Part shown: positions 3 through 63,797 of the stretch, piece after piece
Layout: the number at the start of each line of letters is the position of its first letter
How positions within the stretch are numbered: the stretch's first letter is position 1
Translations under genes and position numbers: made by a program
The notes under the pieces: generated by a model
Database searches by the model: none
Told to the model about the DNA's origin: nothing
Seen by the model: the letters and a program-made list of their open reading frames with translations, nothing else
Assembly: GCA_902793465.1 (NCBI GenBank)
Contig: CADBDT010000011.1
Coordinates: 1 to 64,000 of the forward strand
Length of the DNA stretch: 64,000 bases
Direction: 5' to 3'
Origin: an uncultured Coriobacteriaceae bacterium
GTDB lineage: Bacteria; Actinomycetota; Coriobacteriia; Coriobacteriales; Atopobiaceae

Positions 3-1937
3 AGCAGCGCGTCCACGGCGGTCGACGCGGCCGCCAGCGCCGACGGCCAGGCACCGGCGGCCGAGGGCCAGCCGGCAGCCGAGGGCGAGGCTGCGACGCC
101 CGAGGAGTTCACGGTCCAGCCCGCCGACCAGGACCAGGTGGTAGCCGACGCCAAGGCCGGCTCCTTTGCCGCCGTCACCCGCGAGGGCGTGCGCGTGGTC
201 TACAACGCGCCGCTGGACGTGGCCGAGGGCGAAGAGCTTAAGACCGAGGAGCGCATCGCGCCCATCGCGTCCTTCTCCAACGACGGAACCACCATAACGG
301 TGTCGTTCGCCAACGCGGACGCGCAGCAGTTCGAGACCACCTACTACACCGTCGCCATCGACAGCCTGGCGTCCTGTGCCGTCGTACACGCGAGCCGTCC
401 TACGCAGGAGGTCGCCGCCGTAGACGAACAAGCCCAGCTGGCGGAGCTCGAGGAATACAAGCCGGACTTCTCGAAACCCGACATAAAGCCGCCCGAGGGC
501 GTGGAGATCTCCGGCGGCCAGATTACCATAACCGCCGACGCGCCGGAGCCGGTCGTGGCCGCGCTCGAGGGCGACCCGGCCCTCGCGGAGGGCGAGATGT
601 CGCGCGACGCCGCCAGCGACAAGGAGAAGAGCAAGTGGGACGACTACGACGCCGTGGCACAGTACACGCCGGAGTACCTCTCCTTCGTGAGCAGCGACGC
701 GGCCAAGGTGGCCGAGTACGGCAAGCCGTTCTACGACATCGTCAAGGGCTACTCCACGGGCGACCTGGCGTCGACGCTCGGAGGCACCCTGGGCGTGCTC
801 AAGATGTGCGGCATCGGCAAGGGCTCGTCCGGCGTCACCAACGAGCAGATTCTCGCTGAGGTCAAGGCCCTGCGCGCCGACGTCGACGACCTGCGCGGAC
901 TCACGGGCGCGATGTTCAAGAAGCTCGACGAGGCCGTGCAGGCCATCTACGCGGGCAACCTCAATACCTTTAACGACGCGGTAACGGCCCTGAGCACGTG
1001 CGGCAACGTGGCGGAGGACATGCTGCGAGCAGCTCACAAGATTGCCGTGGAGCAGGGAAAGGAGGTCCCTGGCGAGAACGCCACTCCGGAGGAGGAGCAC
1101 GCCTACTATGACACGCTGATAGAGATCGCCTTTAGCCAGGAGGACCAACACAAGAAGGCCTTCCGTAGCTTCAAGAGCAACTTCGAGAAGCTCGACACGA
1201 ACTTCACCCTGGTGGCGGGGGAGATGGCGAAGGCAGCCAACTTCAACCCGCTCACCACCTACAAGAAGTACTGGGACACCTACTTCAACTACGAGACGCA
1301 GTCGTGGTGGCTCTGCCAGGCCTACCGGTCCAACATCGAGTACCAGCTCAAGCGTGCGTACGCGCTGCTCACGGTGTACTACAACATCGGCGACCCCACC
1401 ATGTCCGAGGATGAGCGCACCCACGACTCGTACGCCGGCAACCTCGCCAGAGCCCTCAGCGGCATGCAGAACGTCCCCATGAGCAAGAGCCGCGACGACG
1501 TGATGGGGACCAAGAAGGATGTCAACGTGTACTCTGGCACGCTCCAGCGAACGATCCGAAGGATGAATTACACGGAAGGTGATTTCGCAGGAGGGCCGCA
1601 GATGTCCCAAAGCGTGGCCTTGAGGCTCGTTGAGAAGCTCCATGGCCGTACCTTGTTCGAAGACCTGGACCTTTCGGGCCTGAATTGCCAAGGAACCAAT
1701 GGCGGTTATATGGTGACGAACACCCCAACAACGAAGGACTATGGCGAACCTTGGGGGTATGCCTATCGCGCGGGTATTGGATTCAACGCCAACAGGAAGG
1801 GCACCGGCGACATTCACCACGACATTCTCGACTGGAACGGCCAGTGGCATTCGGACGTCAAGACCTACAAAAAGGTGAAGGACTGGTACGGCCATACGCA
1901 GCACGAGTACGATCTCGTCTTCTTCTGCTTCGAATAG
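3..1937 (+). CDS. Large unrecognised protein, 5' end outside window
   Basis: The reading frame is open from the left edge, so this is the C-terminal 644 residues of a longer protein; the GTG at 138 is only an internal codon. The first 50 visible residues are Ala/Glu/Pro-rich low complexity, followed by a probable beta-rich stretch. From about residue 270 there is a heptad-like helical segment (LRADVDDLRGLTGAMFKKLDEAV) and a mostly helical domain rich in Tyr, Trp and Phe. The low-complexity N-terminal side suggests an exported or surface protein, but no signal or anchor is visible here. I do not recognise the family. A hairpin follows the stop (1984-2011), and the last bases of the gene plus that hairpin are duplicated near 3094-3190. 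Confidence 0.85.
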   Translation, partial: SSASTAVDAAASADGQAPAAEGQPAAEGEAATPEEFTVQPADQDQVVADAKAGSFAAVTREGVRVVYNAPLDVAEGEELKTEERIAPIASFSNDGTTITVSFANADAQQFETTYYTVAIDSLASCAVVHASRPTQEVAAVDEQAQLAELEEYKPDFSKPDIKPPEGVEISGGQITITADAPEPVVAALEGDPALAEGEMSRDAASDKEKSKWDDYDAVAQYTPEYLSFVSSDAAKVAEYGKPFYDIVKGYSTGDLASTLGGTLGVLKMCGIGKGSSGVTNEQILAEVKALRADVDDLRGLTGAMFKKLDEAVQAIYAGNLNTFNDAVTALSTCGNVAEDMLRAAHKIAVEQGKEVPGENATPEEEHAYYDTLIEIAFSQEDQHKKAFRSFKSNFEKLDTNFTLVAGEMAKAANFNPLTTYKKYWDTYFNYETQSWWLCQAYRSNIEYQLKRAYALLTVYYNIGDPTMSEDERTHDSYAGNLARALSGMQNVPMSKSRDDVMGTKKDVNVYSGTLQRTIRRMNYTEGDFAGGPQMSQSVALRLVEKLHGRTLFEDLDLSGLNCQGTNGGYMVTNTPTTKDYGEPWGYAYRAGIGFNANRKGTGDIHHDILDWNGQWHSDVKTYKKVKDWYGHTQHEYDLVFFCFE

Positions 1938-9357: not shown

Positions 9358-9423
9358 ACCTATCAAGGGGGAGTACCCCTCTTGATTGGTACCTACCAAG
9401 AGGGATACTCCCCCTTGATAGGT
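9358..9423. repeat. REP-like double hairpin, copy 1
   Basis: A near-perfect 66-base palindrome made of two arms with the CTATCAAGGGGGAGTACCCC motif and its complement. Related copies lie at 16830, 45769 and 58930, with a half-size version at 53211. It lies after the peptide gene and in the tail of the decayed toxin locus. Confidence 0.8.
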
Positions 9424-16829: not shown

Positions 16830-16895
16830 ACCTATCAAGGGGGAGTACCCCTCTTGATAGGCGCCAATCAAAAGGGGTACTCCCCCTTGATAGGT
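16830..16895. repeat. REP-like double hairpin, copy 2
   Basis: Same architecture as copy 1 at 9358: CTATCAAGGGGGAGTACCCC, an inner arm, then the complementary half. It sits between the GGDEF and EAL-like genes; a shorter GGGGATACTC piece lies at about 16777. Confidence 0.8.
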
Positions 16896-45768: not shown

Positions 45769-45834
45769 ACCGATCAAGGGGGAGTACCCCTCTTGATTGG
45801 TACCGATCAAGAGGGGTACTCCCCCTTGATCGGT
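45769..45834. repeat. REP-like double hairpin, copy 3
   Basis: ACCGATCAAGGGGGAGTACC, an inner arm and the complementary half, starting at the base after the ABC2 stop codon. It probably serves as the operon's transcription stop or mRNA 3' stabiliser. Confidence 0.8.
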
Positions 45835-48972: not shown

Positions 48973-51693
48973 TTACCTGCGCTCACCATTCCGGCGAACG
49001 AGCACCCCAGCGCACAAAGCCAAGAGCGCCCCACCCAACACCGCGCCTATGGGCAGCGACGCATCTCTCGTCTTGGGAGTGGCGGTGCTGCCGGTTGTCT
49101 TTGTGTTATTGGTCTCCTTCGCCGGAGTGCCTCCGCCTCCAGCGCTGGTCTCATATTTGTTTAGGAATGCCGCCCCGTCTACCTTGTTGCCATCGAGCGT
49201 ATAGGTTATGGAGCTAACCACAAGCTCCCCGTTGGATCCTTCCTCAACTTTCGCGGTCGCATCGAAAACGCGCTTGTCGTAGGTCATGCCCTTCTCGCTT
49301 CCGGCCACTTCGCGGATAACCCACACGTACGTACCTGGCTTGTCTACGTTCAGTGCGTCAAAGCTCACGCTGCCTTTTGCGTTGTTGGTCGCGGTTTGAA
49401 TGGCCTCGCCATGCGCGTCGTCGAGCTGGAAGCTAAACTCATCGTTCTTCAGGGTACGCCCCTCGAGCGTCTTGGTTGCCTCGAGCGCTACCGTTACCGG
49501 TTCGTGCTCGGATACCCCGTCTACAACGTTGTCGAAGGCAAGGGCATCAACGTGCTTATCGTTGAGTTCTATGGTCTTCTGTACCTCGAGCTTTCCGTCA
49601 CCCGCGTCGTGCACGTGGAAGGTTACCACGTGATACGCAGAGTCGTAGGTAATCGCGGGGTTGCCTTCGTCCTCTCGCACGTGGTAGACGTAGGTTCCTG
49701 GAGCCTCAAAAGTAAGAGCGTCAAACTTAACAATGCCGTTGGCGTCGTTGGCCTTACTCTGTCTGGACTCGCCGTGGGCGTCATCCAGGTGGAAGGTAAA
49801 CTCCCCCGCCTCAAGCGGACGCCCCTCGAGCGTCTTGGTTGCCACGACGTTGGCCGATACCGGCTCGTAGGTCTTCGCGACCTCAACCTCGTTTTGGAAG
49901 GCAATCGTACCCACGTCCTTGCCGTCGCGCCTGTTGGCAACGTGCGTGGCAAAGCTGCCGTCCTCCTCCTGCGTAACCGTAACAATTGTCTCGTGCTTAG
50001 ATGTGTCGTAGGTCATGCCGGACTCGTTGCCGGGAACTTCTTCCACCGCATACGAATAGGTACCGGGAGCTGGGAGGTTAATGGGATCGAACGCCACAAG
50101 CCCGTCGGCGTCGTTGGTCTTCTGTTGCAGGACCTCGTTGTTGGCCCCAAGCAGACGGAAGGTAAAGTCGCCACCGGCAAGCTCGCGCCCAACCAAGGTC
50201 TTGGTTGCCTCAAGCGAAACGCTTGTGAATTTGAGGGTGTTGGTAACGTCGAGCGTCAACTCGCCGTCCTTGGTTGCAGTGTGTGGCTCCGCATACGTTA
50301 CCATGTACTCTGTCCCACTTATAAGAGCAATCGAACCAGACATCACTTCCTCGCTGTTGTCGTCAAGCTCGCGGATGGTATAGACCGCTGGCACCTGTTC
50401 GTTATTGTTCCAGTACGTGGGCCACTCGCCAAAGTCGGCCGTCCAGCCGTGGCTGGCATCGACCCAAGCGGTTGCACCGGTAAACTCCTGTTCCGTAGCG
50501 CTTGGCCCGCTGTACAGGCGCACGGCAACAGAGGCGTTCGACGACGGCTGTGAGTCCTCAAGATCCCAGTGCTTGTGGGCGTACAGGTGCGTTGCAGCAG
50601 GACTGACGCTACCTTGCCTGTTAATCTGGAACGTGGCTCCGTTTTTGACCTCAAGCACGCCGCCCTTCTCCACCGTAACGGGAATGCGCGAACCGGCAGC
50701 CACGATGGTCGAGCCGTCAAGCTCCAGCTTGCCGCCACTCTTAACTACGATGCCTTGGTTATCCTGCATCGTAATGGTGCCCTTGTATATGGTAAGGGTC
50801 GCGCCCGACTCTACGGTTAGCGGTGTACCGGTACCCTTGAGCGAAATTGTGTTCAAAGGAAAATGAGCTTCCGATCCTTCCGAAACCACAAACGTACCGT
50901 CGTTTTGTATGGACGCATCCTTAAAGTAGTTTATGCGTGCGGCGTGGCCTCCCAGCGTTACCTGGGCGTTTTGGTCGATTTGGATAATGTTTGCGCCATT
51001 GAAGCTCGACGGCACGCCGCCGTTAATGCTCACGGTTGATAGCGTGGCGCTCGTGCCCGATCTAGCATGCACGATGCCCTTGGCAGCTTCTGAAGGATAC
51101 TGAAAGATGCCACCCTCCATGGTAAAGCTGCCGCTTTGCACATCGATGGCGTAGTCGTAGCTAGTCATGTTGCTGTTGATGGTGCAGTTCTTTAGCGCAA
51201 ACACCTTATCGATTACAATCTGACCGTTAGGCGTAAGGGCTATGGTATCTCTGGTCCATTCCGACTCACTCGGGTGTGTTGGCCCTTCGATTGCCTTATT
51301 AGCCTGCGGTTGGAGCACAGACTCGGCTTGTACGGGTTGGGGTGCAGACAACAGCTTTGGCTGGTTGTCGTTTGTGGGGCTGTTTGTTTGCGACGGATCG
51401 CCCGTTGCTGTGGGTACGTCCTCGTTCTCCTTACCTGCAGGCGACGGGTTATCCGTCTTTGTGGGTGTGTCCCCGCTGTTCGCAGGCCCGCCGTCGGACG
51501 GCTGACCGTTGTCAGGCACCTGTTGGTTGTTGGTTATGGTTGCAGTAGTCCCCCCATGCGTTGTTTGGTCTTCTGGCTCGGCAAACACATGGCTCGGCAA
51601 GAGGCCCACAATTAGGACAAGTGTTACGAACGCCACAAACATCTTGCGCGCAATAGAGGCGTTGGAGGTACGGTCCCGGAATTGATGGATCAT
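48973..51693 (-). CDS. Pilin-like surface protein with Spy0128 isopeptide domains
   Basis: A 906-residue protein with ATG at 51693 after AGGAGTGAG. The signal peptide ends VFA. Residues 40-130 are Thr/Pro/Asn-rich; the next roughly 220 residues are a beta-helix-like part (GGKLELDGSTIV). A Cna-B-like domain (YTIRELDDNSEEV) is followed by three Spy0128-type domains, each with EATKTLxGR, FxxxLxxAxGE and PGTYxYxxRE, which form Lys-Asn isopeptide bonds in streptococcal pili. The C-terminus PKTRDAS, membrane segment and RRNGERR is a sortase-like signal with a non-LPXTG motif. It is probably an adhesin or pilus component; no pilus sortase is nearby. Confidence 0.88.
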   Translation of the reverse strand: MIHQFRDRTSNASIARKMFVAFVTLVLIVGLLPSHVFAEPEDQTTHGGTTATITNNQQVPDNGQPSDGGPANSGDTPTKTDNPSPAGKENEDVPTATGDPSQTNSPTNDNQPKLLSAPQPVQAESVLQPQANKAIEGPTHPSESEWTRDTIALTPNGQIVIDKVFALKNCTINSNMTSYDYAIDVQSGSFTMEGGIFQYPSEAAKGIVHARSGTSATLSTVSINGGVPSSFNGANIIQIDQNAQVTLGGHAARINYFKDASIQNDGTFVVSEGSEAHFPLNTISLKGTGTPLTVESGATLTIYKGTITMQDNQGIVVKSGGKLELDGSTIVAAGSRIPVTVEKGGVLEVKNGATFQINRQGSVSPAATHLYAHKHWDLEDSQPSSNASVAVRLYSGPSATEQEFTGATAWVDASHGWTADFGEWPTYWNNNEQVPAVYTIRELDDNSEEVMSGSIALISGTEYMVTYAEPHTATKDGELTLDVTNTLKFTSVSLEATKTLVGRELAGGDFTFRLLGANNEVLQQKTNDADGLVAFDPINLPAPGTYSYAVEEVPGNESGMTYDTSKHETIVTVTQEEDGSFATHVANRRDGKDVGTIAFQNEVEVAKTYEPVSANVVATKTLEGRPLEAGEFTFHLDDAHGESRQSKANDANGIVKFDALTFEAPGTYVYHVREDEGNPAITYDSAYHVVTFHVHDAGDGKLEVQKTIELNDKHVDALAFDNVVDGVSEHEPVTVALEATKTLEGRTLKNDEFSFQLDDAHGEAIQTATNNAKGSVSFDALNVDKPGTYVWVIREVAGSEKGMTYDKRVFDATAKVEEGSNGELVVSSITYTLDGNKVDGAAFLNKYETSAGGGGTPAKETNNTKTTGSTATPKTRDASLPIGAVLGGALLALCAGVLVRRNGERR

Positions 51694-51787: not shown

Positions 51788-53149
51788 TCACTCCGCAAGC
51801 GCCTGAAGCACCTCGTACGAGCGGTTGTTTATGTGCGAAAGCTCCTTGCGTACCTCCTGCAACTCATCCGTGCGACGACCCAGCGCAGCGCACGACGCAA
51901 GATACGGCTCGGCGACCGCTGCGGCAACCCAGCGCTCCTGGAGCTCACCCGTCGCGCGGACGAACTGCTCATAGAACTTCTCCGCATCCGAGCTCATGGC
52001 CTCGAAGCCCGCCCTACGTACGCCCTGGCGCGCCAGCTCGCAACCATCAAACACAATGAGCCTGCTCACGGCGGCCTGATGCGTGTACAAACCCAGTCGC
52101 CGCAGCTCTTTGGCTTCTGCCATCGCGCCGGCTACCGTCTGCGTGCGGTGCCACATTATGTAGCCCGTCTGCAGTGCTATTCCCGCGTTGCGAACAACCG
52201 TAACAACTTCTTCCAGCCGCCCGACGTCGTATGGCTTGCGCCACGCCTTGAGCGTCTGCGGATTTAGCGACTCCACCCCCACAAAGAGCCGTGACAACCT
52301 CGCCTCCCTAAGACGCACCATGCGATGCGCCAAATCGGGCTGGCCCACCATCGCGGCTAGGCGCATCTCGCAGGCAAAGGCAATCTTTAGCTCGCGCCTG
52401 CGCAGCTCGAGCGCCAGCTCCTCCAAACGTTTAAGCGGACCAAAGTCGTCGTCCACCAGGTTGAACACGGGCGGAAGACCAGCGCGCTCCAGGCGTGCGC
52501 ACTCGTATTCGAGCTCGTCTGCCACAAGCGCAATCGAACGCGATCGCCACCGCCCGAGCCCGTGTGGTAGCTGCGGTGTCGCGCAAAACGTGCACGCGCC
52601 AGCACATCCGCGCGACGTTTGCACGCTAACGGCACAGCCAAGCGCGGCATATCGCTCGATGTGCGGACGGAAGGCTGGCGCCCAGTCGTCGGGATCCACG
52701 GTCAACGCGTCCGCGCTGCCATCCAACGCTTTCAAAAGCGGTGCCTCGCCCTCCCCACGCACAAGCGCGATGCTCCTGGGCAGCCGGCGCCTTGCCTCGA
52801 CGTTCGCCGTCGTAACGTACACGCCGCCTGCCAAAAAGCGTGCCTTTGGATACCAGGCCCTCAGCCTGCTATGCAGACGCAGCGCGTCCGCAACGTCCTG
52901 CGCCGTCATAAGCGAGAAGCCCACGACATCGGGTGGGGTTTTGTCGCATGCGGCACGCACATCCTCCCAAAACGTGGAAGCAAGCGATCCCGCCTGGCGC
53001 TCGCGCTCGTAGAGGCGTCGGTCCAGTACCGTAACGCTAGCCGCATCTCGCGCACGCACGTACCCTGCCAGCCGCTCTATGCCAAGCGGCTCGGAAAACT
53101 CGAGCTCATTGCCCTCGCATAGGGGACGTATGAGCAACACGTGCACCAT
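51788..53149 (-). CDS. B12-type radical SAM enzyme
   Basis: A 453-residue protein, ATG at 53149 behind AGGAAGGACGAGA. Residues 1-150 form a cobalamin-binding-like domain (IRPLCEGNELEFSEPLG, VVGFSLM, LAGGVYVT), though a canonical DxHxxG is not evident. The radical SAM core follows with SRGCAGACTFCATP, the CxxxCxxC cluster motif. The N-terminal EPLGIERLAGYVR is typical of this family, which makes methyl transfers or C-C bond rearrangements. Last gene of the minus-strand array with the Cys-rich peptide; whether it acts on that peptide is unknown. A REP hairpin lies between it and the U32-like gene. Confidence 0.83.
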   Translation of the reverse strand: MVHVLLIRPLCEGNELEFSEPLGIERLAGYVRARDAASVTVLDRRLYERERQAGSLASTFWEDVRAACDKTPPDVVGFSLMTAQDVADALRLHSRLRAWYPKARFLAGGVYVTTANVEARRRLPRSIALVRGEGEAPLLKALDGSADALTVDPDDWAPAFRPHIERYAALGCAVSVQTSRGCAGACTFCATPQLPHGLGRWRSRSIALVADELEYECARLERAGLPPVFNLVDDDFGPLKRLEELALELRRRELKIAFACEMRLAAMVGQPDLAHRMVRLREARLSRLFVGVESLNPQTLKAWRKPYDVGRLEEVVTVVRNAGIALQTGYIMWHRTQTVAGAMAEAKELRRLGLYTHQAAVSRLIVFDGCELARQGVRRAGFEAMSSDAEKFYEQFVRATGELQERWVAAAVAEPYLASCAALGRRTDELQEVRKELSHINNRSYEVLQALAE

Positions 53150-53210
53150 TCTCGTCCTTCCTGCAAAGTGGTTCGGTGGCCCGTCCGATCGATGGGCCTC
53201 TTAGTATAGG

Positions 53211-53241
53211 CCTATCAAGAGGGAGTACCCCTCTTGATAGG
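53211..53241. repeat. Single REP hairpin providing a stop codon
   Basis: CCTATCAAGAGGGAGTACCC and its complement, a half-size version of the REP family. The last codons and the TGA (53215-53217) of the U32-like gene lie within it. Confidence 0.75.
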
Positions 53242-54711
53242 TTCAAACTCCGCGGTAACGGAGCTGCCACCTGTGACGAAGGCCAGCGCTGCCTGCAGGC
53301 TGGGACGAGCGTCGAGCTTAAGACCATGCATCCAGTGGTCCTGCAGCTTGCGTGGGGGCTCGCGATACGTAAGCACCCGCGGCTTGCCGTCCGCATCCCA
53401 CACCGTACGCGGCGGGTTGGCCTCGGGCGACAGGAATTGTTCCAGCTCAACGGGCACACCACCACCAACAAGCAGGCTTCCTGCCGTAAGCGCAACTCCT
53501 TGCTTGGGGTCTGCGAGGTCGGATAGCGCAGCGAGCGTACCAACGTCGTTGGCGCAAAGGCGAACGCCCGCGGCTCCCATGTTGGCCTGGCGACGCTGCA
53601 ACCACACGTGCAGTTCTTCAAGCTCCTCGCTCGCAAGACCCTCCCCCTGTTGGGGACAAAAGAGCAGTGTAACCGGCCGTGTGGCATCTTCCGCGCCGGC
53701 AGCCGCAAGCACATCGGAAAGCAAGCTGTCCTTTATCTGGCTCCCCGCATACACGCGCTCTGGATCGCGCACCTCCACAGGCGCCTCGATGGCGCTAGCA
53801 TGCTGCCTCGCGGCACCGTAATAGCATGAGCACCCGTGGCCGAAGGTCTGCTCGTACAGAGCGGCGCGCTCGTCGCTGTCCACACGCGCCTCGGCCTCGC
53901 GCAAGAACGTTAGTGCCCGCACGCGCTCGGGCAACGGGCGCCCGCGACCGCCAAGCTTGCCGTAGCGCACACCAGCGCGTTGAAAGGCCTCCACCTCGCA
54001 GGCGCCGCAGGGGTCCGGATTCACGTACGTACGGCTCGAACCCAGGCAGGCATGCGTGGTATAGGTGGTGCAAAACGTGTACAGGGGCTCACCTACCAGG
54101 CTGGCATCCGAACCCGTGCGTGGCGCATAGCCCACACCGTGGTAGTGCTCGCAGTAGCCGTCCACCAGCGGACACTTGTCGAAGAAGACCATGCTTTCGG
54201 CTTCCATGCCCGGAACCGCACGCAGCACCTTTCCCGCCAAAGCGGCATCCATAAAGCGCGGAAGCACGATGCGAGAGACTCCCAACTTGGCAAACGCACG
54301 CGCGCTCTGCGTGCTGGCACACACGGACAGGAGCGAGAGTACGCGCACGAGCTTGCTCCCCGTCTCGCGCAAACGCCACAGGAGTCCCAGGTCACGCACG
54401 ATAACACCCGTGCCGCCCATGCTTTCGAATGCCTCGCACAGCTCCACAAGGTAGTCCAGCTGTTCCTCGTCGTAGTGGCCGTTGAGTGCAAGGTATAGCG
54501 GGATGTCGTGCGCGGCGGCCTTTGCGGCAAGTCGTGCGAGCTCGTCGCGCGTTTCCAAGTTGGCACGACCTTGTCGGCGGCTTATGGAATCGTGATCGCC
54601 GTAGCGCTCCCGCCACCACGCCTCCTGGATGCTGCAGTACAGCTCCCCTGCTCCCGCCTTCGCAAGCGGTGCTACTTCGTTTGCCGCATGCGCCGGAGCA
54701 CAGTAGATCAT
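53215..54711 (-). CDS. U32-like peptidase-family protein
   Basis: A 498-residue protein with ATG at 54711 after TAGGGAGTGATC. It opens MIYCAPAHAANEVAPLAKAG and continues with a TIM-barrel-like series (PLYLALNGHYDEEQLDYLVE, GGTGVIVRDLGLLWRL), as in U32 family proteins. A cysteine-rich middle (about residues 185-260: KCPLVDGYCEHYHG, CTTYTTHACLGS, DPCGACEVE) is in the place where U32 proteins bind an iron-sulfur cluster. Some U32 proteins are collagenase-like, others work in RNA or quinone hydroxylation or in peptide maturation. The end EPIKRGTPS is encoded by the REP hairpin, so the native C-terminus was probably different. Confidence 0.78.
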   Translation of the reverse strand: MIYCAPAHAANEVAPLAKAGAGELYCSIQEAWWRERYGDHDSISRRQGRANLETRDELARLAAKAAAHDIPLYLALNGHYDEEQLDYLVELCEAFESMGGTGVIVRDLGLLWRLRETGSKLVRVLSLLSVCASTQSARAFAKLGVSRIVLPRFMDAALAGKVLRAVPGMEAESMVFFDKCPLVDGYCEHYHGVGYAPRTGSDASLVGEPLYTFCTTYTTHACLGSSRTYVNPDPCGACEVEAFQRAGVRYGKLGGRGRPLPERVRALTFLREAEARVDSDERAALYEQTFGHGCSCYYGAARQHASAIEAPVEVRDPERVYAGSQIKDSLLSDVLAAAGAEDATRPVTLLFCPQQGEGLASEELEELHVWLQRRQANMGAAGVRLCANDVGTLAALSDLADPKQGVALTAGSLLVGGGVPVELEQFLSPEANPPRTVWDADGKPRVLTYREPPRKLQDHWMHGLKLDARPSLQAALAFVTGGSSVTAEFEPIKRGTPS

Positions 54712-54747
54712 TGGATCACTCCCTACGCCACTTCCCCGAGTACGTTC

Positions 54748-54785
54748 GGGTGTGCTGCGAGGAATACTCCCCTCGCGGCACACCG
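54748..54785. repeat. GGAATACTCCCC-core palindrome
   Basis: GTGTGCTGCGAGG and its complement around AATACT, between the TPR lipoprotein and U32-like genes. Same core family as the REP elements. Confidence 0.65.
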
Positions 54786-54786
54786 T

Positions 54787-56541
54787 CTATATCTCGAGCT
54801 TGCCCGACGCAATCTCCTTGCCGTCCGCATCCTTAACAACAATCGTGCCCGAAACCGACTCCACCGCGGCGCTCTTTAGCGCGCCGGCGTTCTTTGCCTT
54901 TAGCAGAAGATAGTGATGCGATCCGTTGCCGTTCTTGTATAGCAGGCCGGCATTAAGGAGCTGCACATCCACTCCGTTAACCTTCCAGTCGTCCTTGGTG
55001 TCAAACGACACTTTTCCTTTGCCTTTATATCCGCTCGAGTACTCGACTGCCACAAAGTCGTCGTTTGCACCACGAATGCCGGTTACGGAAAGCGAGAACA
55101 CATCCTTCTGGTCGATGACCTTCTTCTTTTCTATCTTCTTAAAATCCTTGTCGCTCTCGCCGGCCTTCCACGAAAGGGGAAGCGTTGCCAAGTCCACTGT
55201 TTTGTTGCCGGTCATGTCCGAAACGGTAACCGCGCAGGTCATCTCCTTAAGCTCGCCCTTAACAAGCGATACCGTCTTGTCGTCTTCCTTACCATAGAAC
55301 GAGCCCCAGCCACTCCCCTGCTCACCTGCGTTGGCGAGAGCGGAGGCACCCGAGAAGTTCTGAATCTCAATCCCGTTTGCAATAGCGTTCTTTGCCTGCA
55401 CACGCAACTTTTTGTCACCCGTCTTGTTGAGCATCAAGAACTCGGCTATGGGCTTGTCGCTCGACATGTGGTAGCCCGTAAGCACAACGGTACAGTTGTC
55501 GTCGTCTGTAATCACGTAGGGCAGTCCCACATGGGGCTCCACCTTGGAAAAGTCGATATTGGCTTCCTTGGTCGTTTTTGACGACGAGGTCGACGAGCTG
55601 GAGGATGAGCTCTTGGAAGAGCTTGAAGAGGAACTCTTAGACGAGCTCGACGAACTCGAGGACGAACTGGATGAGGAGCTCGAGGAAGACGAACTCGAAG
55701 ACGAGCTGCTGCTGTTGTCTACCTGCTCGGAAAGCCCCAGCTGCTTGTCGATTGCCTCCAGGTAGGCAAGCAGCGCCTTGGCATCTGCATCTTTGGAAAA
55801 CTTGTTTTTGAGCGCCTTGGTTAGCTCCGTGTGCAACGATTCGTAGACTTCGCCACTGCTCTTGCTGCCTTCCTTGTTGTTCATGGCTTCCCACAGCTTG
55901 GTTTCTATGCGGTCCCACAGGCTGTTGTAAGAGATCTCGGTCGAGCGCTTTTTGGAAACCTTGGAACCCTTTTTTGCTTCGCCAACAACCTCGTCGCCCG
56001 TCTTTAGGGCATCGTCGGCCGCAAAGCCGCTGGCCACAGCGGCCGTCTGTACGTTTAGCGGAATGCCTGCATCGGTGGGGAACAAATAGAGGCTCGTGAG
56101 GGCCTGAACGAGCGCCAGCTCGTTCTTCTCTTGATGCAGCATTGCGAGCGTAAGGTTTACGTTGGCGCCATAGTGCCGCGGATACGTTTTGAGTACGCCC
56201 TCGTAACCCTCTTGCGCCTTTTCGTAGTCGCCCTTCTTGTACTGCTCGTTGGCCGCCTGGAAGTCCTTGTTTACCTCGTCCGTGAGCGTTGCCTCGTCCT
56301 TGTCGCTTTTGGCATCGCTGCGCTGCTTGCCGGTTTCGAGCGCCTTTTTCTTAAACTGCTCCATCTCGCTTATGTCGCGCGGCTCGCGACCCTTAAACGC
56401 GCCCTCCTGCACGGCAGCAGATCCCTGCGCTGCAGACCCCTGAGCGGACGTGCCTGCCCCCTTGCCGCCACACCCGGGCAGCACCAAAACCAGAAGCGCA
56501 AACAAGGAAACGAGAAACACTCGTACAAGCTGCTTCTTCAT
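54787..56541 (-). CDS. Lipoprotein with TPR-like region and poly-serine linker
   Basis: A 584-residue exported protein. ATG at 56541 behind GGAGAAGAAC; lipobox VLPGC. Residues about 85-150 hold TPR-like helices (ANEQYKKGDYEKAQEGYEGV). Two further helical segments are followed by a serine run of about 50 residues broken by a few Lys/Thr, which acts as a flexible linker. The C-terminal 220 residues are beta-rich (VEPHVGLPYVITDDDNCTVVLTGY). No known domain recognised there. It lies 22 bases after the Cys-rich peptide gene and so is probably in the same operon, which suggests that the peptide or its product acts at the cell surface (inference). Confidence 0.8.
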   Translation of the reverse strand: MKKQLVRVFLVSLFALLVLVLPGCGGKGAGTSAQGSAAQGSAAVQEGAFKGREPRDISEMEQFKKKALETGKQRSDAKSDKDEATLTDEVNKDFQAANEQYKKGDYEKAQEGYEGVLKTYPRHYGANVNLTLAMLHQEKNELALVQALTSLYLFPTDAGIPLNVQTAAVASGFAADDALKTGDEVVGEAKKGSKVSKKRSTEISYNSLWDRIETKLWEAMNNKEGSKSSGEVYESLHTELTKALKNKFSKDADAKALLAYLEAIDKQLGLSEQVDNSSSSSSSSSSSSSSSSSSSSSSSSSKSSSSSSSKSSSSSSSTSSSKTTKEANIDFSKVEPHVGLPYVITDDDNCTVVLTGYHMSSDKPIAEFLMLNKTGDKKLRVQAKNAIANGIEIQNFSGASALANAGEQGSGWGSFYGKEDDKTVSLVKGELKEMTCAVTVSDMTGNKTVDLATLPLSWKAGESDKDFKKIEKKKVIDQKDVFSLSVTGIRGANDDFVAVEYSSGYKGKGKVSFDTKDDWKVNGVDVQLLNAGLLYKNGNGSHHYLLLKAKNAGALKSAAVESVSGTIVVKDADGKEIASGKLEI

Positions 56542-56563
56542 GTTCTTCTCCCAACTCGCTCGC

Positions 56564-57031
56564 TTAGTGGACGGGCACGCATGCGCACGGAGCGCCGCAG
56601 GAAACCCAGCCGCCTCCCCCTCCCGACGAGACGCTCTCGCAGCTGCAGCTCTGGTAGCCGTCGCAGCTGCATACATCTTCGCAGGTGCATTCGGCGTCAC
56701 AGGTGCAAACCGTCTCGGTGGGCGCTGGGGTGGCCACGGCATCGCACGTGCACACGGTTTCGGTGGAACCGCTTGGCGCAGGTGTTGCCACGGTGTCGCA
56801 GGTGCACACGGTGTGCGTGCTTATTACCGTGTCGCAGCTGCAGTACGTTCCCATAACCTGGGCATCAAACTTGTTCTTTGCTTTGTTGTAGTCGTCTACA
56901 AAGTACGTCTTCATGGATGGCTTAAACACGCTGTTGCCGTCCACGATAATCTCGATTTGAGGCTTGGGTAGCACCTCGTCGGAACCCTTTGCAAGGGCGC
57001 GGTCATCGTAGCTTTTACTGGAATTAGACAT
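56564..57031 (-). CDS. 155-residue CxC-rich peptide, candidate radical SAM substrate
   Basis: ATG at 57031 overlaps the end of the maturase frame and has AGGAAGGGAG upstream. The first 60 residues are polar, without Cys (IEIIVDGNSVFKPSMKTYFV), and suit a leader. The rest has 17 Cys, mostly as CxC: CSCD, CTCD (three times), ECTCED, CSCDG, CSCES, then a Gly run and SCGAPCAC. The TVCTCD(T/A)VATPAP units are repeated. Clustered Cys followed by Asp recall thioether-forming (sactipeptide/ranthipeptide) precursors, but the CxCD spacing is unlike the common ones. It follows a PqqD-like gene and a radical SAM/SPASM gene, the usual order of such clusters. A metal-binding protein is the main alternative. 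Confidence 0.75.
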   Translation of the reverse strand: MSNSSKSYDDRALAKGSDEVLPKPQIEIIVDGNSVFKPSMKTYFVDDYNKAKNKFDAQVMGTYCSCDTVISTHTVCTCDTVATPAPSGSTETVCTCDAVATPAPTETVCTCDAECTCEDVCSCDGYQSCSCESVSSGGGGGWVSCGAPCACVPVH

Positions 57032-58420
57032 CCTGTGTGCTCCCTTCCTCCTGGGGCTTCCACTCCAGCTTGCGCTGAATTTGGTTTAGGGTAAGCGCGC
57101 GGCTAATCTCGCAGCGCATGCTGCCACGATGCTCCTCTATCTGAATGCCGTCGAGCACCTTGGCCGCGCAGTCGCCCGCGCAGTGCCAGCGACAAAAACA
57201 GTCGTCGCAATAGCGAATGTTGTGCACATTGAGCGCCGAGAGCGCCTCGAGCTTGGCATCGTCGAACACAAACTCGTCGCGTTCTGGGTCAAAGCGACCG
57301 AAGAAGAAGCGCTTGCTGCGCGGGTCGGAGGCGCCGTAACGTCTCCTGTGGGAGTTACGGTAAAGCTGCCGCTGCTCACCTTGCAAAACGTGTCGGAGAT
57401 AACGTCCTGCCGCGCGCCACTAAACACGAGGCGCAGCTTGTGTTCCTTTGCCACGGCCAACGACTCCAAGTAGCGCTTTACAAAGGTGGCGGAGTCCGGC
57501 ATTGCGTTGGTCGACGTTTTGCAGCGACCGCATTCCCACACGGGCTCGAAGTGCAGCTGCTCCAGCCCCGGATAATTCTGTGCCACAAACTCCACGATGT
57601 CCGGCATGGCATCTACCATGGCCTCCGTAACCGTGGTCCGAATGCCAAAGCCCACGCCCGCCTCGCAGAGCCGCCTCATGGTGCGGTCTGCGGCTTGGAA
57701 GGAGCCCTTGCCACCGGCTGTGGGACGGTTTGCGTCTTGGAACGCGGGCAGACCATCGAACGACACGTTTACGGAGTTGAAGTTGGCCACCACAAAGTCC
57801 AGCTGCTCCTCGGTAAGAACCCCGTTGGTCGCGGCGTTAAAGATGGCGGGCACGCCAAGCTCCTCTGCCACGTCCTGCGCGTACCACACGATCTGTTGTA
57901 TAAGGTCGTACGCGCAAAACGGCTCGCCGTTGCCGTGGATGGACACCAAAAAGTTGTGGGTACCGTCTCCCTCGTCGCGGCGCTCCCGCGCGTTCTTGGC
58001 AATAAGGTCAACCGCACGCTGGGCGCACCTAAGGTCCATTGTGGTTATGGGCTCGCCGTTGCCGCCGCCCTCTCCGCCAAAGGCATAGCAGTACGTGCAG
58101 CGCAGGTTGCAGTTGTTTGTGGGAAAGAGCGTAACCTGCGTTGGCCTAAACGTACGCTCGTGGTGCGGGAGGACGCGATTCTCAAAGAAACCGCGCTCGG
58201 CAAACGCACGCACCACCGCCTGCTCGTCGGCACTCATGACATCGTACGCGGTGTGATCTTGCGCATAGGCAAGGGCTGCCGCAATGGCCGGCTCGTTGGC
58301 GCGCGCCATCAGGCGACCGAGAGGCGCATACAGAATGGGACCCTTGTTGTCTTGCAGCACAAAGAGCTCGGGAGCCGACGGCTCATACAAGGAGCCCTTT
58401 TGCGGGGCGTTGCCGCTCAT
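57024..58420 (-). pseudogene. Frameshifted radical SAM/SPASM peptide maturase
   Basis: From ATG 58420 the frame encodes about 360 residues of a radical SAM peptide maturase: TLFPTNNCNLRCTYCYAFGG (CxxxCxxC cluster), GNGEP, ATNGVL, SFDGLPAFQDANRP. At about 57335-57350, after FTVTPTGDVTA, it leaves frame; the other frame resumes ASDPRSKRFFFGRF and then the SPASM cluster (YCDDCFCRWHCAGDC ... RCEIS), ending at 57024. The junction falls where SPASM proteins have the auxiliary-cluster Cys (VTxCYE), so a short deletion seems to have removed it. If real, the enzyme is dead; a sequencing error cannot be excluded. TGA/ATG overlap with the PqqD-like gene upstream. Confidence 0.75.
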
Positions 58421-58821
58421 GCCTGTGTCTCCGTAAGGTTTACGAGCACGGTGTTGGCGAGGTATCCCGCCTGGCCCAGCTCCACAAAGAACGACGCCAC
58501 GTCGGCAGGTTTCAGCTGGCCATTAGCACTGGCAAGCTCGTCTATGGTACGGCTGCCGTCGGCCAAGCGCACGAGCTCGGCACCGGTGGCGTCCACTTTA
58601 AAGAGGTGGGTGTTGCCGTACATGCCGTGTACCACGTTGCCAGCGGGCACAAGCTCAATGCCTGCGACCATTACGGGACCTAGGGCTGACTCCGCATTTG
58701 GTACCGAGGCCGTCACAAAGTTTGCGCTCTGCACGTTTGTGCCAACAACAGCTCCCGCCACTCCAAGCGTCGCGAGCGCCACGAACCCAAACGCCCCTTT
58801 TACGAACGCCCTTCTCTCCAT
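58417..58821 (-). CDS. PqqD-like protein with Tat-like N-terminus
   Basis: A 134-residue protein, ATG at 58821 after AAGGGGG. Residues 1-27 look like a twin-arginine signal (MERRAFVKG then a hydrophobic stretch). The C-terminal part, HLFKVDATGAELVRLADGSRTIDEL, fits PqqD-like domains (LxxTGAxIxxLxDGxxTxxEL), which bind leader peptides for radical SAM enzymes. A PqqD domain is normally cytoplasmic, so the Tat-like signal is odd: it may be a membrane anchor instead. It overlaps the maturase gene by 4 bases (ATGA) and is the first gene of the array. Confidence 0.75.
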   Translation of the reverse strand: MERRAFVKGAFGFVALATLGVAGAVVGTNVQSANFVTASVPNAESALGPVMVAGIELVPAGNVVHGMYGNTHLFKVDATGAELVRLADGSRTIDELASANGQLKPADVASFFVELGQAGYLANTVLVNLTETQA

Positions 58822-59306
58822 CGCAACCCCCTTAGCATGCCCTTTGTGTAATTTAGTATATGCCAACGGGGATATGGTCGTTCGTCAAACTAGTGGACGG
58901 TATATCCCAAGGTGGTGCCCCAGGTGTTTACCAATCAAGGGGGAGTACCCCTCTTGATAGGTACCAATCAAGAGGGGTACTCCCCCTTGATTGGTACACT
59001 CCTCCACAGACGTGTGGAGCCGCCCGAGTGCGGCTCCCTGTTACTTAGCAACATCCAAGAACGTTGCACTAATTAAATTATACCCGACCAGAAGTATCTT
59101 AATCCGTCTTTTGCTCCATCCTAGATGCACCCCGGATACAACATTCCATATTTGTGGTTCTGCGCTATTCTGTTTGTTGCTAAGATACGAGATAGAGGGT
59201 TTATGGCTCTGTTAATATAATCTACGAACTTCTTCGCGTTTATACTGTTGGTCACGTTAAACCATTTTGTATTTTGATATTATAGGCCAGAACGTTGGGG
59301 GATACC
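58822..59306. other. Intergenic region with AT-rich promoter zone
   Basis: No gene seen. It contains the divergent promoters of the minus-strand array and the subtilase, a REP double hairpin (58930-58995) and, at 59060-59290, AT-rich DNA likely to hold the subtilase promoter. Confidence 0.5.
58930..58995. repeat. REP-like double hairpin, copy 4
   Basis: ACCAATCAAGGGGGAGTACC, inner arm and complementary half, 66 bases long like copies 1-3. Here it lies in a divergent promoter region rather than after a gene. Confidence 0.8.
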
Positions 59307-62300
59307 ATGCACCTGCACAAACGCACCCGAACGATCGTCGCAATTCTTTTGGTCCTTTGCGTTGTTGCCGTAGCGCTTTTTACGCGAATTCCTGCGCAAA
59401 CGCCATCGCAGCCAGCAGGGCAACCCATGCCGTCTGGAAGCGCTCAGAAGTCAGACGAGCCTCCTGTACCCAACGACTCCGCTTCCGTTCCCGCACAAAC
59501 CGATGCCACGGACGTGCAAGCAGACGGAAGCACAAGCGCGCCCTCAGCTTCCAGCGTCTCCGATAACGCCTCCGAAGCCGCTGTTCACGAAGGCACAGCC
59601 TCTGCGGAGGCCAACTCCGTAAGCGAGGACCTCCAGCGCCAGGTAAACGCCGCAATCCCGCGCGCCGAGCGTACGACAGTTGCCAAGAATGCGGCGTATG
59701 AGCCAGGCGTGGTGCTCGCTTCGGTAAGCAAGGGCACAACACCCGCGCAATTCTCGCAAGCCATAGCAGAGGCAGGCATTAAGACTGTGCAGCAAAACGG
59801 CGTCGAGGCCGTAACGGACGACCTTGTGTTGGCAAAGCTGGCTGCAGATGCCTCGCTCGACGATGCAATCTACGAGCTGGAGAGCACCGGCGTAGCTAAA
59901 GGTGCGCAACCGAACTATATCTACGAAATCGCGGAAGAGCTCGTGCCTGAGAATCCGCAAGCGGCAAGCGATACCAAGACCACCAACGACATCAGCACCC
60001 TTAAGCCATCCGACGAATCCAACCTGGCAACCGAAGTCGGCCCAGTAGAGCCCACCGCGGTGGAAGAGCAGTCCGATGCCCAGCCCACGACCAGCGTTCA
60101 GTCCACGTCGTTCACAGCGGCAAGAGACGCACTCAACGACACGCATGCAAGAGAACAGTGGGGCCTAGACAGCATAGACGCGCTTGATGCCTGGGAATAC
60201 CCACCCCTAAAGAACGCCACAACAACAGTTGGGGTGGGCGTTATAGACAACGGCTTCAACGATTCCCACGAAGACCTTGTAGACAATATTCGGAGCACGT
60301 ACAACGCCACAACCAAGGTCGAAAACGTGCCCGTTCCCTGTCCCCCTGGCACGCCAAACGCGGACCATGGCATCCATGTTGCCGGCATTGTTGCAGCCAC
60401 ATCAAACAACAACAAGGGCATAAGCGGCGTTGGGTTTAACCACCTCAAGCTCTCCCTGGTACGCCTCACGGACGAAAACAATCCCGAGAGGATCTCCACT
60501 GATGTTGTAGCACAGGGTTTCGAGTACCTTATTAAACATAAAGATCAGTACAACATTCGCGTAGCGAGCATGAGCATTGGCGGCAAGGTCAGCAGCCTTC
60601 CCCCTAATGACGACGCCATCCTTGCAAAGATTGACAAAGCGTACGAGCAGGGAATCGTAACGGTTGCATCGGCTGGCAACGAGACCGGAACGGCCATACC
60701 ACCCTACATCAACTATCCCAGCGACTACGAGACCGTGGTAAGCGTAATAAACCTGCGCAACACCAATAGCAACGACCCCAAGAGCGTGGAGAAAAGCAGC
60801 ACTTCCAACTACAACGCTCTTGGCGAGAAGAGCAAGAACATCTCGGCCCCCGGTACTGACATATACAGCACCTATCCGAGCGGCTATGGAAACATGTCGG
60901 GTACGTCCATGGCGGCCCCGCACGTTTCGGGCGTTGTGGGTCTTATGTTTGCAGTCAACCCAAAGTTGAGCGCAGCTCAGGCAAAGAACCTGCTGTATAG
61001 CAGCGCTCGCGATATAGGCACCGAAGACTGGGACGAAACGTACGGATATGGCGAGGTTAACGCCGCGGCTGCGGTTCGCGCCGCCGCAGCTGGCACCATT
61101 GCGGGGCCTGAATACCTTGCCACTGGCTCGCAGGCAACGTATACCCTTGGACCAGACTTCGAGGGATGGAGGTTCTCGTCATCCAACCCAGACGTGCTTA
61201 CAATCAGCACAAACGGGGCAGCCACTGCGGTTTCGGCTGGCATCGTTACCGTAAGCGCCAGCAACGGAAGCTCCTCCGTTACGCAGCAGGTAACGGTCCT
61301 TGGCCCCATAACGGGCACGAACTTTGTGGCAAAGGATGGATCCGCATCGTTGTCCATAACCACGCCCGACGGATGCAGCGACCTCGCGTGGGAGTGGAGT
61401 TCCAGCAACGAGCCCGCTGCAACCGTCACCAACAACGGAGAGGTTAACGGCCATAGCGTGGGCACCACGACCATTACCGCAACGCTCAGGGCAAACCCGA
61501 ACGTTTCGCTGAGCCACACCGTTACGGTATACGACACGCTTCAGGGCGACGTGTACGTGCCCGTAGAACGCACAGCCAACCTAACGCCTGTTATCCCATC
61601 TGGCTTCGAAAACCCAACGGTAAGCTGGTCCAGCGCAAACGAGCAGGTCGCAACCGTTACCGCATCCGACAATAAAGGCGAGGTAACGGCCAAAAAAGCT
61701 GGCGGCGCAGCCATTGTTTGCACCATTACATCGGACAAACAGTCCGTAACCAATATATGGCCCGTCTACGTGTACGGGCCCATTGAGGGCAACACCCGCG
61801 TGGGAATCGGGCAGAGCACGCAGCTCAAGGTCGCAGGCGTCAGTGGCGTGGAAGATCTCCAAACAGGTTGGACGTGGTCACTGTACGAGGGTTCAAGCAA
61901 CGAGGTGGCAACCGTAAGTGACAGCGGTGTTGTGACCGGCAGACAGCCAGGTACGGTTACGGTTACGGCAACTAGGGGAACCGAGCCAAATACGGCAAGC
62001 TTCTCGCATACCATGGAGGTAACCACGCTGTCGCTCGCCAACGCAAAGGTAACCATCCCCAAGCAGACCTATACTGGCAGCAAACTCACGCCAGCTCCTG
62101 CGGTAACGCTCAACGGAACCACGCTTGTGGCTGGCACCGACCACGAGGTGGTCGACCAGAACATCGTAAACGTTGGCTCGTACAACGTTGTTATTCAGGG
62201 CAAAGGCGTCTATGCAGGCACAGCAACCGGCAATTTTGTGGTTGAGCCCAAGCGTCTTACACCGCCAAAGCCCAAAACCGGCCTCGTGTACAACGGATCG

Positions 62301-63797
62301 GAACAAACGGCAGTTGCCGCAGGCGACTACGAAACCATTAGGGGTACGACCTCGGCAACTGATGCCGATGAGTACTACGCCGTTCTAGAGGTTAAGGACA
62401 CGACCAACACATGCTGGGAGGGTAGCAACAGTACGACACATCGCATCGAATGGTCTATCGAGGAGTGTCCCATCTCGGAGGCGAGCGTTTCCGGCCTGGG
62501 TTCTTATGTGTACAACGGCGCAGCGCAAACACCAAAGCCAACGCTTACGTTTAACGGCAAGGCGCTTAAGGAGGGAACTGACTACGGGCTATCCTATGCA
62601 AACAACGTTAATGTGGGCGCCGCCACGGTTACCATCTCGACCAAAGATAGCGAAAACTTTAAAGGCACCAACAAGGCAACGTTTAATATTTTGCCAGCGT
62701 CGTTGAGCAACGCTACCGTCTCGGGTCCCTCCACGCAACTGTATTCGGACAAGTTCCTTACGCCCAGGCCTACGGTAACTCTCGCAGGCAAAACTTTGCG
62801 CGAGGGGATCGACTACACGCTTGCCTACTCCAATAACCGCAACGTGGGCATAGCCACAGTAACCATAACGGGCAAGGGCAACTACACTGGCACCAAGGTG
62901 TCCACGTTCAAGATAGAGAGACAGCCTTGCACCGTGGCATATCGCTCGCACGTGCAGAAGGTCGGTTGGCAGGACTGGGTACGCAACGGCTCCACAAGCG
63001 GGACGGTCGGACAGGCCTTGCGTCTCGAGAGCGTAAACCTCAAGCTAGAGGGACAACCCTGCGCCGGGGGCATCGAGTACCGCAGCCACGTGCAGGGCAT
63101 CGGCTGGGAGGGCTCGTGGAAGCGCGACGGCGCCACCAGCGGGACGGTGGGCCAGGCGCGCCGCCTCGAGGCCGTACAGGTTCGGCTTACCGGGCAGATG
63201 GCCGAACACTACGACGTGTGGTACCGCGCCCACGTCCAGCAGGTGGGTTGGATGGGCTGGGCCAAGAACGGCCAGATTGCGGGTACTACGGGCCAGGCGC
63301 GCCGTCTCGAGGCACTCGAGGTATTGGTGCTGCAAAAGGGTTCCGCAGCACCTGGCCCCACGATAGACGAATTAAGGAAGCAGCTTGTTGGCTACAGCAC
63401 GCATGTCCAGCGCATTGGCTGGCAAGGCCAGGTTTATGACGGTGCCGTAGGCGGGACGGTTGGCCAGGCCCTACGTCTTGAAGGCATACAGATAGGATTG
63501 CAGCTACAGCCCTATACGGGAAGCATCGAGTACCGCAGCCACGTGCAGGGCATCGGCTGGGAGGGCTCGTGGCAGCGCGACGGCGCCACCAGCGGGACGG
63601 TGGGCCAGGCACGCCGCCTCGAGGCCGTACAGGTTCGGCTTACGGGGCAGATGGCCGAGCACTACGACGTGTGGTACCGCGCCCACGTGCAGCGCGAGGG
63701 CTGGATGGACTGGGTGCGCAACGGACAGATCGCGGGTACCGCGGGCCAGGCACTCCGCCTCGAGGCGATTCAGATCAAGCTGACTCCCAAAAGCTGA
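59307..63797 (+). CDS. Subtilisin-like (S8) protease with Big2 and ChW repeats
   Basis: A 1496-residue exported protease. ATG at 59307 after TTGGGGGAT; a hydrophobic signal-like N-terminus, then a Ser/Ala/Pro-rich segment and a propeptide-like part (about 105-240). The catalytic triad: Asp314 (VIDNGFNDSHEDL), His354 (HGIHVAG), Ser534 (SGTSMAAPHVSG), with SAGNE. Next come about four Big2-type Ig domains (SSNxxVxTVxxxGxVTAxxxG), three repeats with YTGxxLTPxPxVTLxG, then six ChW repeats (YRSHVQGIGW...GTVGQARRLEAV) that in clostridia bind the cell surface. No sortase signal, so attachment is likely through ChW. Two ChW blocks are nearly identical in DNA (63069-63237 and 63522-63690). Confidence 0.9.
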   Translation: MHLHKRTRTIVAILLVLCVVAVALFTRIPAQTPSQPAGQPMPSGSAQKSDEPPVPNDSASVPAQTDATDVQADGSTSAPSASSVSDNASEAAVHEGTASAEANSVSEDLQRQVNAAIPRAERTTVAKNAAYEPGVVLASVSKGTTPAQFSQAIAEAGIKTVQQNGVEAVTDDLVLAKLAADASLDDAIYELESTGVAKGAQPNYIYEIAEELVPENPQAASDTKTTNDISTLKPSDESNLATEVGPVEPTAVEEQSDAQPTTSVQSTSFTAARDALNDTHAREQWGLDSIDALDAWEYPPLKNATTTVGVGVIDNGFNDSHEDLVDNIRSTYNATTKVENVPVPCPPGTPNADHGIHVAGIVAATSNNNKGISGVGFNHLKLSLVRLTDENNPERISTDVVAQGFEYLIKHKDQYNIRVASMSIGGKVSSLPPNDDAILAKIDKAYEQGIVTVASAGNETGTAIPPYINYPSDYETVVSVINLRNTNSNDPKSVEKSSTSNYNALGEKSKNISAPGTDIYSTYPSGYGNMSGTSMAAPHVSGVVGLMFAVNPKLSAAQAKNLLYSSARDIGTEDWDETYGYGEVNAAAAVRAAAAGTIAGPEYLATGSQATYTLGPDFEGWRFSSSNPDVLTISTNGAATAVSAGIVTVSASNGSSSVTQQVTVLGPITGTNFVAKDGSASLSITTPDGCSDLAWEWSSSNEPAATVTNNGEVNGHSVGTTTITATLRANPNVSLSHTVTVYDTLQGDVYVPVERTANLTPVIPSGFENPTVSWSSANEQVATVTASDNKGEVTAKKAGGAAIVCTITSDKQSVTNIWPVYVYGPIEGNTRVGIGQSTQLKVAGVSGVEDLQTGWTWSLYEGSSNEVATVSDSGVVTGRQPGTVTVTATRGTEPNTASFSHTMEVTTLSLANAKVTIPKQTYTGSKLTPAPAVTLNGTTLVAGTDHEVVDQNIVNVGSYNVVIQGKGVYAGTATGNFVVEPKRLTPPKPKTGLVYNGSEQTAVAAGDYETIRGTTSATDADEYYAVLEVKDTTNTCWEGSNSTTHRIEWSIEECPISEASVSGLGSYVYNGAAQTPKPTLTFNGKALKEGTDYGLSYANNVNVGAATVTISTKDSENFKGTNKATFNILPASLSNATVSGPSTQLYSDKFLTPRPTVTLAGKTLREGIDYTLAYSNNRNVGIATVTITGKGNYTGTKVSTFKIERQPCTVAYRSHVQKVGWQDWVRNGSTSGTVGQALRLESVNLKLEGQPCAGGIEYRSHVQGIGWEGSWKRDGATSGTVGQARRLEAVQVRLTGQMAEHYDVWYRAHVQQVGWMGWAKNGQIAGTTGQARRLEALEVLVLQKGSAAPGPTIDELRKQLVGYSTHVQRIGWQGQVYDGAVGGTVGQALRLEGIQIGLQLQPYTGSIEYRSHVQGIGWEGSWQRDGATSGTVGQARRLEAVQVRLTGQMAEHYDVWYRAHVQREGWMDWVRNGQIAGTAGQALRLEAIQIKLTPKS

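Follow-up and report, generated by a model that had tools for sequence, protein, structure and literature searches.

A Putative Tat-Linked RiPP Locus With a CxC-Repeat Precursor in Coriobacteriia

Introduction

What is made by an operon that sets a radical S-adenosylmethionine (SAM) enzyme beside a peptide crowded with CxC units, and by which route might the product leave the cell? The question is raised by six minus-strand genes at positions 51788-58821 of contig CADBDT010000011.1 (assembly GCA_902793465.1), from an uncultured Coriobacteriaceae bacterium placed by GTDB in the Atopobiaceae. The whole stretch analysed, positions 1 to 64,000 of this contig, is referred to as the window. A first reading of the sequence (the original prediction) had proposed an undescribed Cys-rich peptide maturation locus running from a PqqD-like protein to a B12-type radical SAM protein, and open reading frame (ORF) calling recovered all six genes as listed (Table 1). 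The close packing of the first genes was likewise found: the PqqD-like reading frame opens at 58821 (MERR...) and ends across the maturase start at 58420, and the precursor start (57031) overlaps the maturase stop (57024).

On sequence and predicted structure, the locus very probably represents a real, selected and undescribed family of ribosomally synthesized and post-translationally modified peptides (RiPPs). It is built around a CteB/PapB-like maturase with an unusual connection to the twin-arginine translocation (Tat) pathway. The proposal of an undescribed maturation locus is borne out by the co-occurrence of peptide and maturase, an adjacent RiPP recognition element (RRE) fold, the likeness of the maturase to CteB and the lack of a curated family for the peptide.

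Distribution and Selection

Among 84,980 species genomes scanned, 20 true relatives were found, all in Coriobacteriia-type assemblies; several come from sheep or goat gut, and those named RUG are presumably rumen assemblies. Related loci are labelled L024, L026, L028, L029, L040 and L073-L079 below, and G067 and G073 are genomes of the comparison set. Within the GTDB family (140 genomes) the distribution is patchy: the maturase occurs in 21 genomes and the peptide in the same 21, with the B12 protein in 20 and the U32 protein in 19, all inside this set. The peptide search gave one extra match, attributed to chance (E 9.5e-4). Close maturase and peptide again share the same 21 genomes in a class sample of 398, and no maturase was found at E 1e-45 in a phylum sample of 296 genomes beyond the window's own. 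The expected pairing of the peptide with its maturase thus holds; no relative without a radical SAM neighbour was found, and the PqqD-like gene lies beside the peptide wherever the contig extends to it.

An all-against-all comparison of the flanks of the 20 loci leaves the six families as the common content, with antisense ORFs, a loose histidine kinase group and little more besides; no transporter, ABC (ATP-binding cassette) exporter or immunity gene is conserved among them. Ratios of nonsynonymous to synonymous substitution (dN/dS) against L024 are about 0.07 for the maturase, 0.11 for the peptide, 0.13 for the U32 and B12 proteins, 0.23 for the PqqD-like protein and 0.34 for the lipoprotein. 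By this sequence measure, all six genes are under purifying selection.

The Precursor Peptide

Translation of the ORF gives the 155-residue peptide with 17 Cys that had been described. Its first Cys is residue 64, and the 63 residues before it, the Cys-free leader-like part of the original prediction, carry a motif conserved in the alignment. Eight CxC units follow; shuffled cores have a mean of 2.9 and reached eight in 24 of 20,000 cases. The TVCTCDxVATPAP blocks exist as described, but they are confined to the window's lineage, and the unit repeated across the family is V-C-[ST]-C-[DE]-x-V. Family members contain 10-19 Cys, mostly within CxC units, and the repeat number varies between a leader and a C-terminus that are nearly invariant across families. 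A short precursor with a leader and a distinct core, encoded next to a modifying enzyme, is what is expected of a RiPP locus.

The precursor matched no Pfam or NCBIfam model at E up to 1, metallothionein families included, although some metallothionein types may be without a model. The latter search answers the concern, raised with the original prediction, that the peptide might be a known metallothionein-like protein. It also lacks the SCIFF hallmark of six Cys in forty-five residues and was unmatched among the plasmid and phage sequences searched.

The Maturase

In NCBIfam the maturase falls among peptide-modifying SPASM enzymes, with PapB as best match (2e-30 to 5e-36) and all scores under the cut-offs. 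For the two members shown, the PapB model NF047865 gives 106-118 bits against a cut-off of 340, and the SCIFF model TIGR03974 gives 82-104 against 425. The suggested comparison with ranthipeptide models therefore favours PapB, but at no curated threshold. A sequence search of the PDB at E 1e-10 returned CteB alone (2.7e-23).

The AlphaFold model of the intact orthologue L024 (mean predicted local distance difference test score, pLDDT, 78.7) is best matched, along its whole length, by CteB (5WHY; Z 26.8, root mean square deviation 4.8 over 391 residues, span 16..459). CteB and TigE align to the model from residue 16, whereas anSME and ChlB (Z about 24) match from residue 88 or later. Residues 20-75 are predicted to follow the b-b-b-a-a-a order of an RRE, and the maturase appears, from this model, to carry its own N-terminal RRE.

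A Second Predicted RRE Behind a Twin-Arginine Motif

The PqqD-like protein has a Pfam PqqD match that is no more than suggestive (E 6e-4; 20.4 bits against a cut-off of 23.4). Its AlphaFold model has the b-b-b-a-a-a fold, fairly confident over residues 45-126, and the top structural matches are RREs: PbtF, TbiB1, a lasso B1 protein, cyanobactin heterocyclases of the TruD/LynD type, and TigE. The Foldseek E-values are weak (best 4e-3), with RREs dominating the top matches, and the VIA comparison, at Z about 8, is borderline taken alone. Discrete and maturase-fused RREs are both marks of a RiPP locus, and both are present here in predicted structures.

The N-terminus adds an RRxF motif and a hydrophobic stretch, seen in a hydrophobicity scan, as expected of a Tat substrate. 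R3, R4 and F6 are invariant in all 18 aligned proteins; five more loci retain the motif, among them L073 and L074 with maturases of only about 50% identity, so that it is present in all 23 distinct orthologues whose N-terminus is complete. According to its model, the protein thus joins a second RRE fold to an invariant Tat motif, a feature new here. Since the maturase appears to possess an RRE already, some other role must be sought for a second one that follows a Tat signal. The original prediction had missed both this motif and the sister system described below, which are the more unusual features of the locus.

A Sister System in Family f12

In a profile search of the class, five genomes of GTDB family f12 proved to encode a maturase that is more distantly related (203-243 bits). 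Upstream of each lies a precursor that was found in exactly those 5 of the 27 family genomes. It is arranged as PKV[FY]RIAQ, RR-x-F-VKAT, a hydrophobic stretch, a lipobox-like [LMV]-[STG]-G-C, CxC units and an HYWYP end; the CxC units are few in two of the five (L075 and L077). Pfam TAT_signal scores 21.8 bits on this precursor, against a cut-off of 22.7. The sister operons contain up to four radical SAM enzymes, and L078 has an ornithine-racemase-like gene upstream. The first enzyme, r1, shares 32% identity with the window-family maturase (hhalign score 434) and is less close to its operon neighbours r2 and r3 (205-217); by sequence, it is homologous to the window family's maturase. With a Tat signal on the PqqD-like protein in one system and on the precursor in the other, both CxC systems would be Tat-linked.

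The Lipoprotein, U32 and B12 Radical SAM Proteins

The lipoprotein gene occurs at 19 of the 20 loci, the remaining contig ending before it, and nearly all homologues have a lipobox-like motif; the protein is possibly a surface anchor or receptor. The invariant Cys of the U32 protein are C180, C187, C222, C235, C238, C294 and C296. The B12 protein has an invariant CxxxCxxC, which together with its B12-binding domain gives the domain make-up of a putative cobalamin-dependent radical SAM methyltransferase; a DxHxxG motif was searched for in it and not found. Neither protein has a close named relative. UbiU and TrhP, both U32 proteins, take part in oxygen-independent hydroxylation, and many B12 radical SAM enzymes are methylases, so that, by analogy, further modifications of the peptide by these two proteins are plausible.

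A rearrangement in G073 places the U32 and B12 genes about 10 kb to each side of the locus, yet both are retained, within about 21 kb. A second U32-B12 pair on contig C126 of G067 is closer to the window's than that genome's main copy; it may reflect contamination (8%) in the G067 assembly.

Comparison With Known Systems

Ranthipeptides (CteA-CteB of the SCIFF group, and PapA-PapB of freyrasin) share with the window a radical SAM/SPASM maturase with an N-terminal RRE, and a Cys-rich core in which Asp or Glu often lies near Cys. They differ in having CX3D spacing or six Cys in 45 residues instead of CxC hexads, and their maturase models PapB and SCIFF score the window family far under the cut-offs. 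The window operon also includes extra genes, for the PqqD-like protein, lipoprotein, U32 and B12 radical SAM proteins. In the quinohemoprotein amine dehydrogenase system QhpC/QhpD, the polypeptide is exported, by an ABC-type transporter and not by Tat. The SPASM maturase of that system is related (TIGR03906, 2e-25), but the window operon is without dehydrogenase subunit genes.

Cys-Asp/Glu thioethers are formed on the QhpC polypeptide, and SCIFF maturation links Cys to Thr (PMC8326336). PapB accepts Cys-Xn-Asp/Glu with n = 0-6 (PMC9413430), and either type of acceptor is therefore possible for the window peptide. The same tolerance means that Cys spacing is insufficient to define a separate class: the family stands as undescribed, but not on the spacing argument of the original prediction.

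The MelC1 caddie protein is a partner that bears a Tat signal for a cargo without one. Such hitchhiking is established for other proteins, as in PaoABC, where again the partner has the signal and the cargo does not (PMC4273604); the carrier proposed here would differ in being an RRE, and the cargo in being a RiPP. Nisin, a modified RiPP, has been displayed on phage by way of Tat in a folded state (PMC11048544), in a laboratory construct, whereas the window holds a natural operon. This engineered display was the only result of a literature search on radical SAM enzymes or RiPPs with Tat, PqqD, Coriobacteria and Atopobiaceae, in which coverage of subscription journals was thin. The RRE-Finder paper mentions neither Tat nor signal peptides.

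Proposed Mechanism and Alternatives

There is about an even chance, given the sequences and models, that the operon cross-links the CxC peptide in the cytoplasm and then exports it folded through Tat. The maturase would bind the PKPQIxIIVDG leader and join Cys thiols to neighbours, either the Asp/Glu after CxC or the Thr/Ser inside it. The linkages would be thioethers to carbons other than the alpha carbon, a chemistry that we infer from the kinship with CteB and PapB. The PqqD-like protein would bind the same leader and ferry the folded, cross-linked peptide through TatABC as a hitchhiker, and the lipoprotein might receive or anchor it at the cell surface. The U32 and B12 radical SAM proteins may add one or two oxygen-independent modifications. 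In the f12 branch the leader itself would contain the Tat signal, and signal peptidase II would therefore cut off leader and signal together.

Several observations weigh against this reading. Of 131 CxC units, 95 are followed by D/E and the rest by V, L, Q or N, so that an acidic acceptor is not universal. Pfam TAT_signal does not match the window's PqqD-like protein, and TatC is uninformative as a co-occurrence test because it is nearly universal (134 of 140 family genomes). In L040 neither a U32 nor a B12 gene appears in the roughly 7.5 kb downstream, and these two genes may therefore be dispensable. Between the U32-like proteins of the window family and of the sister system, hhalign and BLASTP detected no kinship, and their common label is for this reason left out of the evidence. 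The maturase gene, present as the original prediction held, is not intact in the window's own assembly: near 57332, 19 nt are deleted, with loss of the first SPASM Cys (A-CYEVSY-A) and of the reading frame, which continues through this site in 17 of 17 aligned relatives. The downstream fragment differs from L024 at 6, 3 and 25 sites in codon positions 1, 2 and 3; since the differences fall mostly at third positions, the fragment still has the look of selected sequence, and the frameshift is, on this evidence, a recent loss or an assembly error.

Among the alternatives, it is unlikely, though conceivable, that the product is a ranthipeptide-like RiPP whose PqqD-like protein is exported or anchored for processing or chaperoning outside, the peptide leaving by other means or staying in the cell. 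The RRE fold and the maturase are well supported and fit this account, and hitchhiking is itself a proposal; against it stand the lack of any other transporter conserved across loci and the Tat signal on the precursor of the sister system. A metallothionein-like metal store, in which CxC would bind metal and the radical SAM change would be minor or regulatory, is improbable: the CxC spacing and Cys content suit it, but the peptide has no Pfam or NCBIfam match, it is strictly paired with a CteB-like maturase and an RRE, and its leader and C-terminus are conserved. A bacteriocin of gut Coriobacteriia is more improbable still, for although many radical SAM RiPPs are antimicrobial and the family is patchy in distribution, no immunity gene or ABC exporter is conserved, leader and C-terminus are nearly invariant across families, and plasmids and phages gave no match.

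Feature Coordinates and Flanking Genes

Table 1. Features of the window locus and the related operon in family f12.
Feature	Position	Strand	Basis
Tat-signal PqqD-like protein, 134 aa; predicted discrete RRE, proposed leader-binding Tat carrier	58417..58821	-	Pfam, AlphaFold fold, structural matches, alignment
Twin-arginine signal-like N-terminus M-[ED]-R-R-x-F and hydrophobic stretch	58732..58821	-	Alignment, hydrophobicity scan, diverged homologues
Radical SAM/SPASM maturase, N-terminal part (RRE-like and radical SAM domains)	57332..58420	-	Pfam Radical_SAM 2.5e-11; NCBIfam PapB 2e-30, under cut-off
Maturase C-terminal SPASM part, out of frame past the 19-nt deletion	57024..57332	-	Unbroken frame of relatives
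CxC-repeat precursor peptide, 155 aa, 17 Cys	56564..57031	-	ORF, alignment, dN/dS
Cys-free leader, 63 aa, conserved PKPQIxIIVDGxxxFKPxMKxYFV	56843..57031	-	Alignment
Core: eight CxC units and conserved C-terminus SCGxPCACVPVH	56564..56842	-	Alignment
Lipoprotein: lipobox LVLPGC, TPR region, Ser-rich linker, C-terminal part	54787..56541	-	Pfam TPR_16 3e-5, under cut-off
U32 family protein (UbiU/TrhP-like), seven invariant Cys	53215..54711	-	Pfam Peptidase_U32 3e-14; NCBIfam UbiU 7e-9
B12-binding-domain radical SAM protein	51788..53149	-	Pfam Radical_SAM 3e-15, B12-binding 6e-9
Sister operon: Tat-lipobox CxC precursor, U32-like, HemN-like radical SAM	L078:6095-15000; also L075-L077, L079		

The next gene downstream of the B12 radical SAM gene, with the same orientation, encodes a surface protein (48973-51693) in which Pfam finds three isopeptide domains of the Spy0128-like (FctA) kind and which has an anchor-like segment at its C-terminus. 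Upstream of the operon and divergent from it is a large subtilase (S8; 59295-63797) with Big_2 domains and six ChW repeats. Sensor histidine kinase genes in the same orientation precede the PqqD-like gene by about 40-80 bp at L026:6065-8542, L028:5596-8538 and L029:5975-8500 (domains checked in L026 alone), and a regulator in this lineage is possible. The kinases, the FctA protein and the S8 protease were considered and set aside, as they are not consistently conserved at related loci, which do not share the subtilase.

A near-palindromic repeat, ATCAAGAGGGGTACTCCCYCTTGAT, lies at 53214-53238, 58934-58991, 45773-45830, 16834-16891 and 9362-9419. It has 155 copies genome-wide with at most two mismatches (control 0), often as inverted pairs 33 bp apart, and one copy codes for the final residues of the U32 gene.

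Biological Meaning

A structural, redox or metal-binding role at the surface is favoured over a bacteriocin, as far as sequence can suggest a function, because the leader and C-terminus are uniform, the repeats vary and no immunity gene or ABC transporter is conserved. More tentatively, and with somewhat less than an even chance, thioether RiPPs that are exported by Tat and displayed on the surface may form a natural class in Coriobacteriia, in which one branch has the Tat signal within the leader and the other uses an RRE as a dedicated carrier. ABC transporters are the usual way out of the cell for RiPPs, and RREs have been described as parts of modification enzymes. The Tat-motif RRE and the Tat-signal precursor suggest instead that a peptide is exported already folded and cross-linked and that an RRE may have a role beyond catalysis, and the CxC hexads would add a new pattern to the substrates of thioether-forming radical SAM enzymes.

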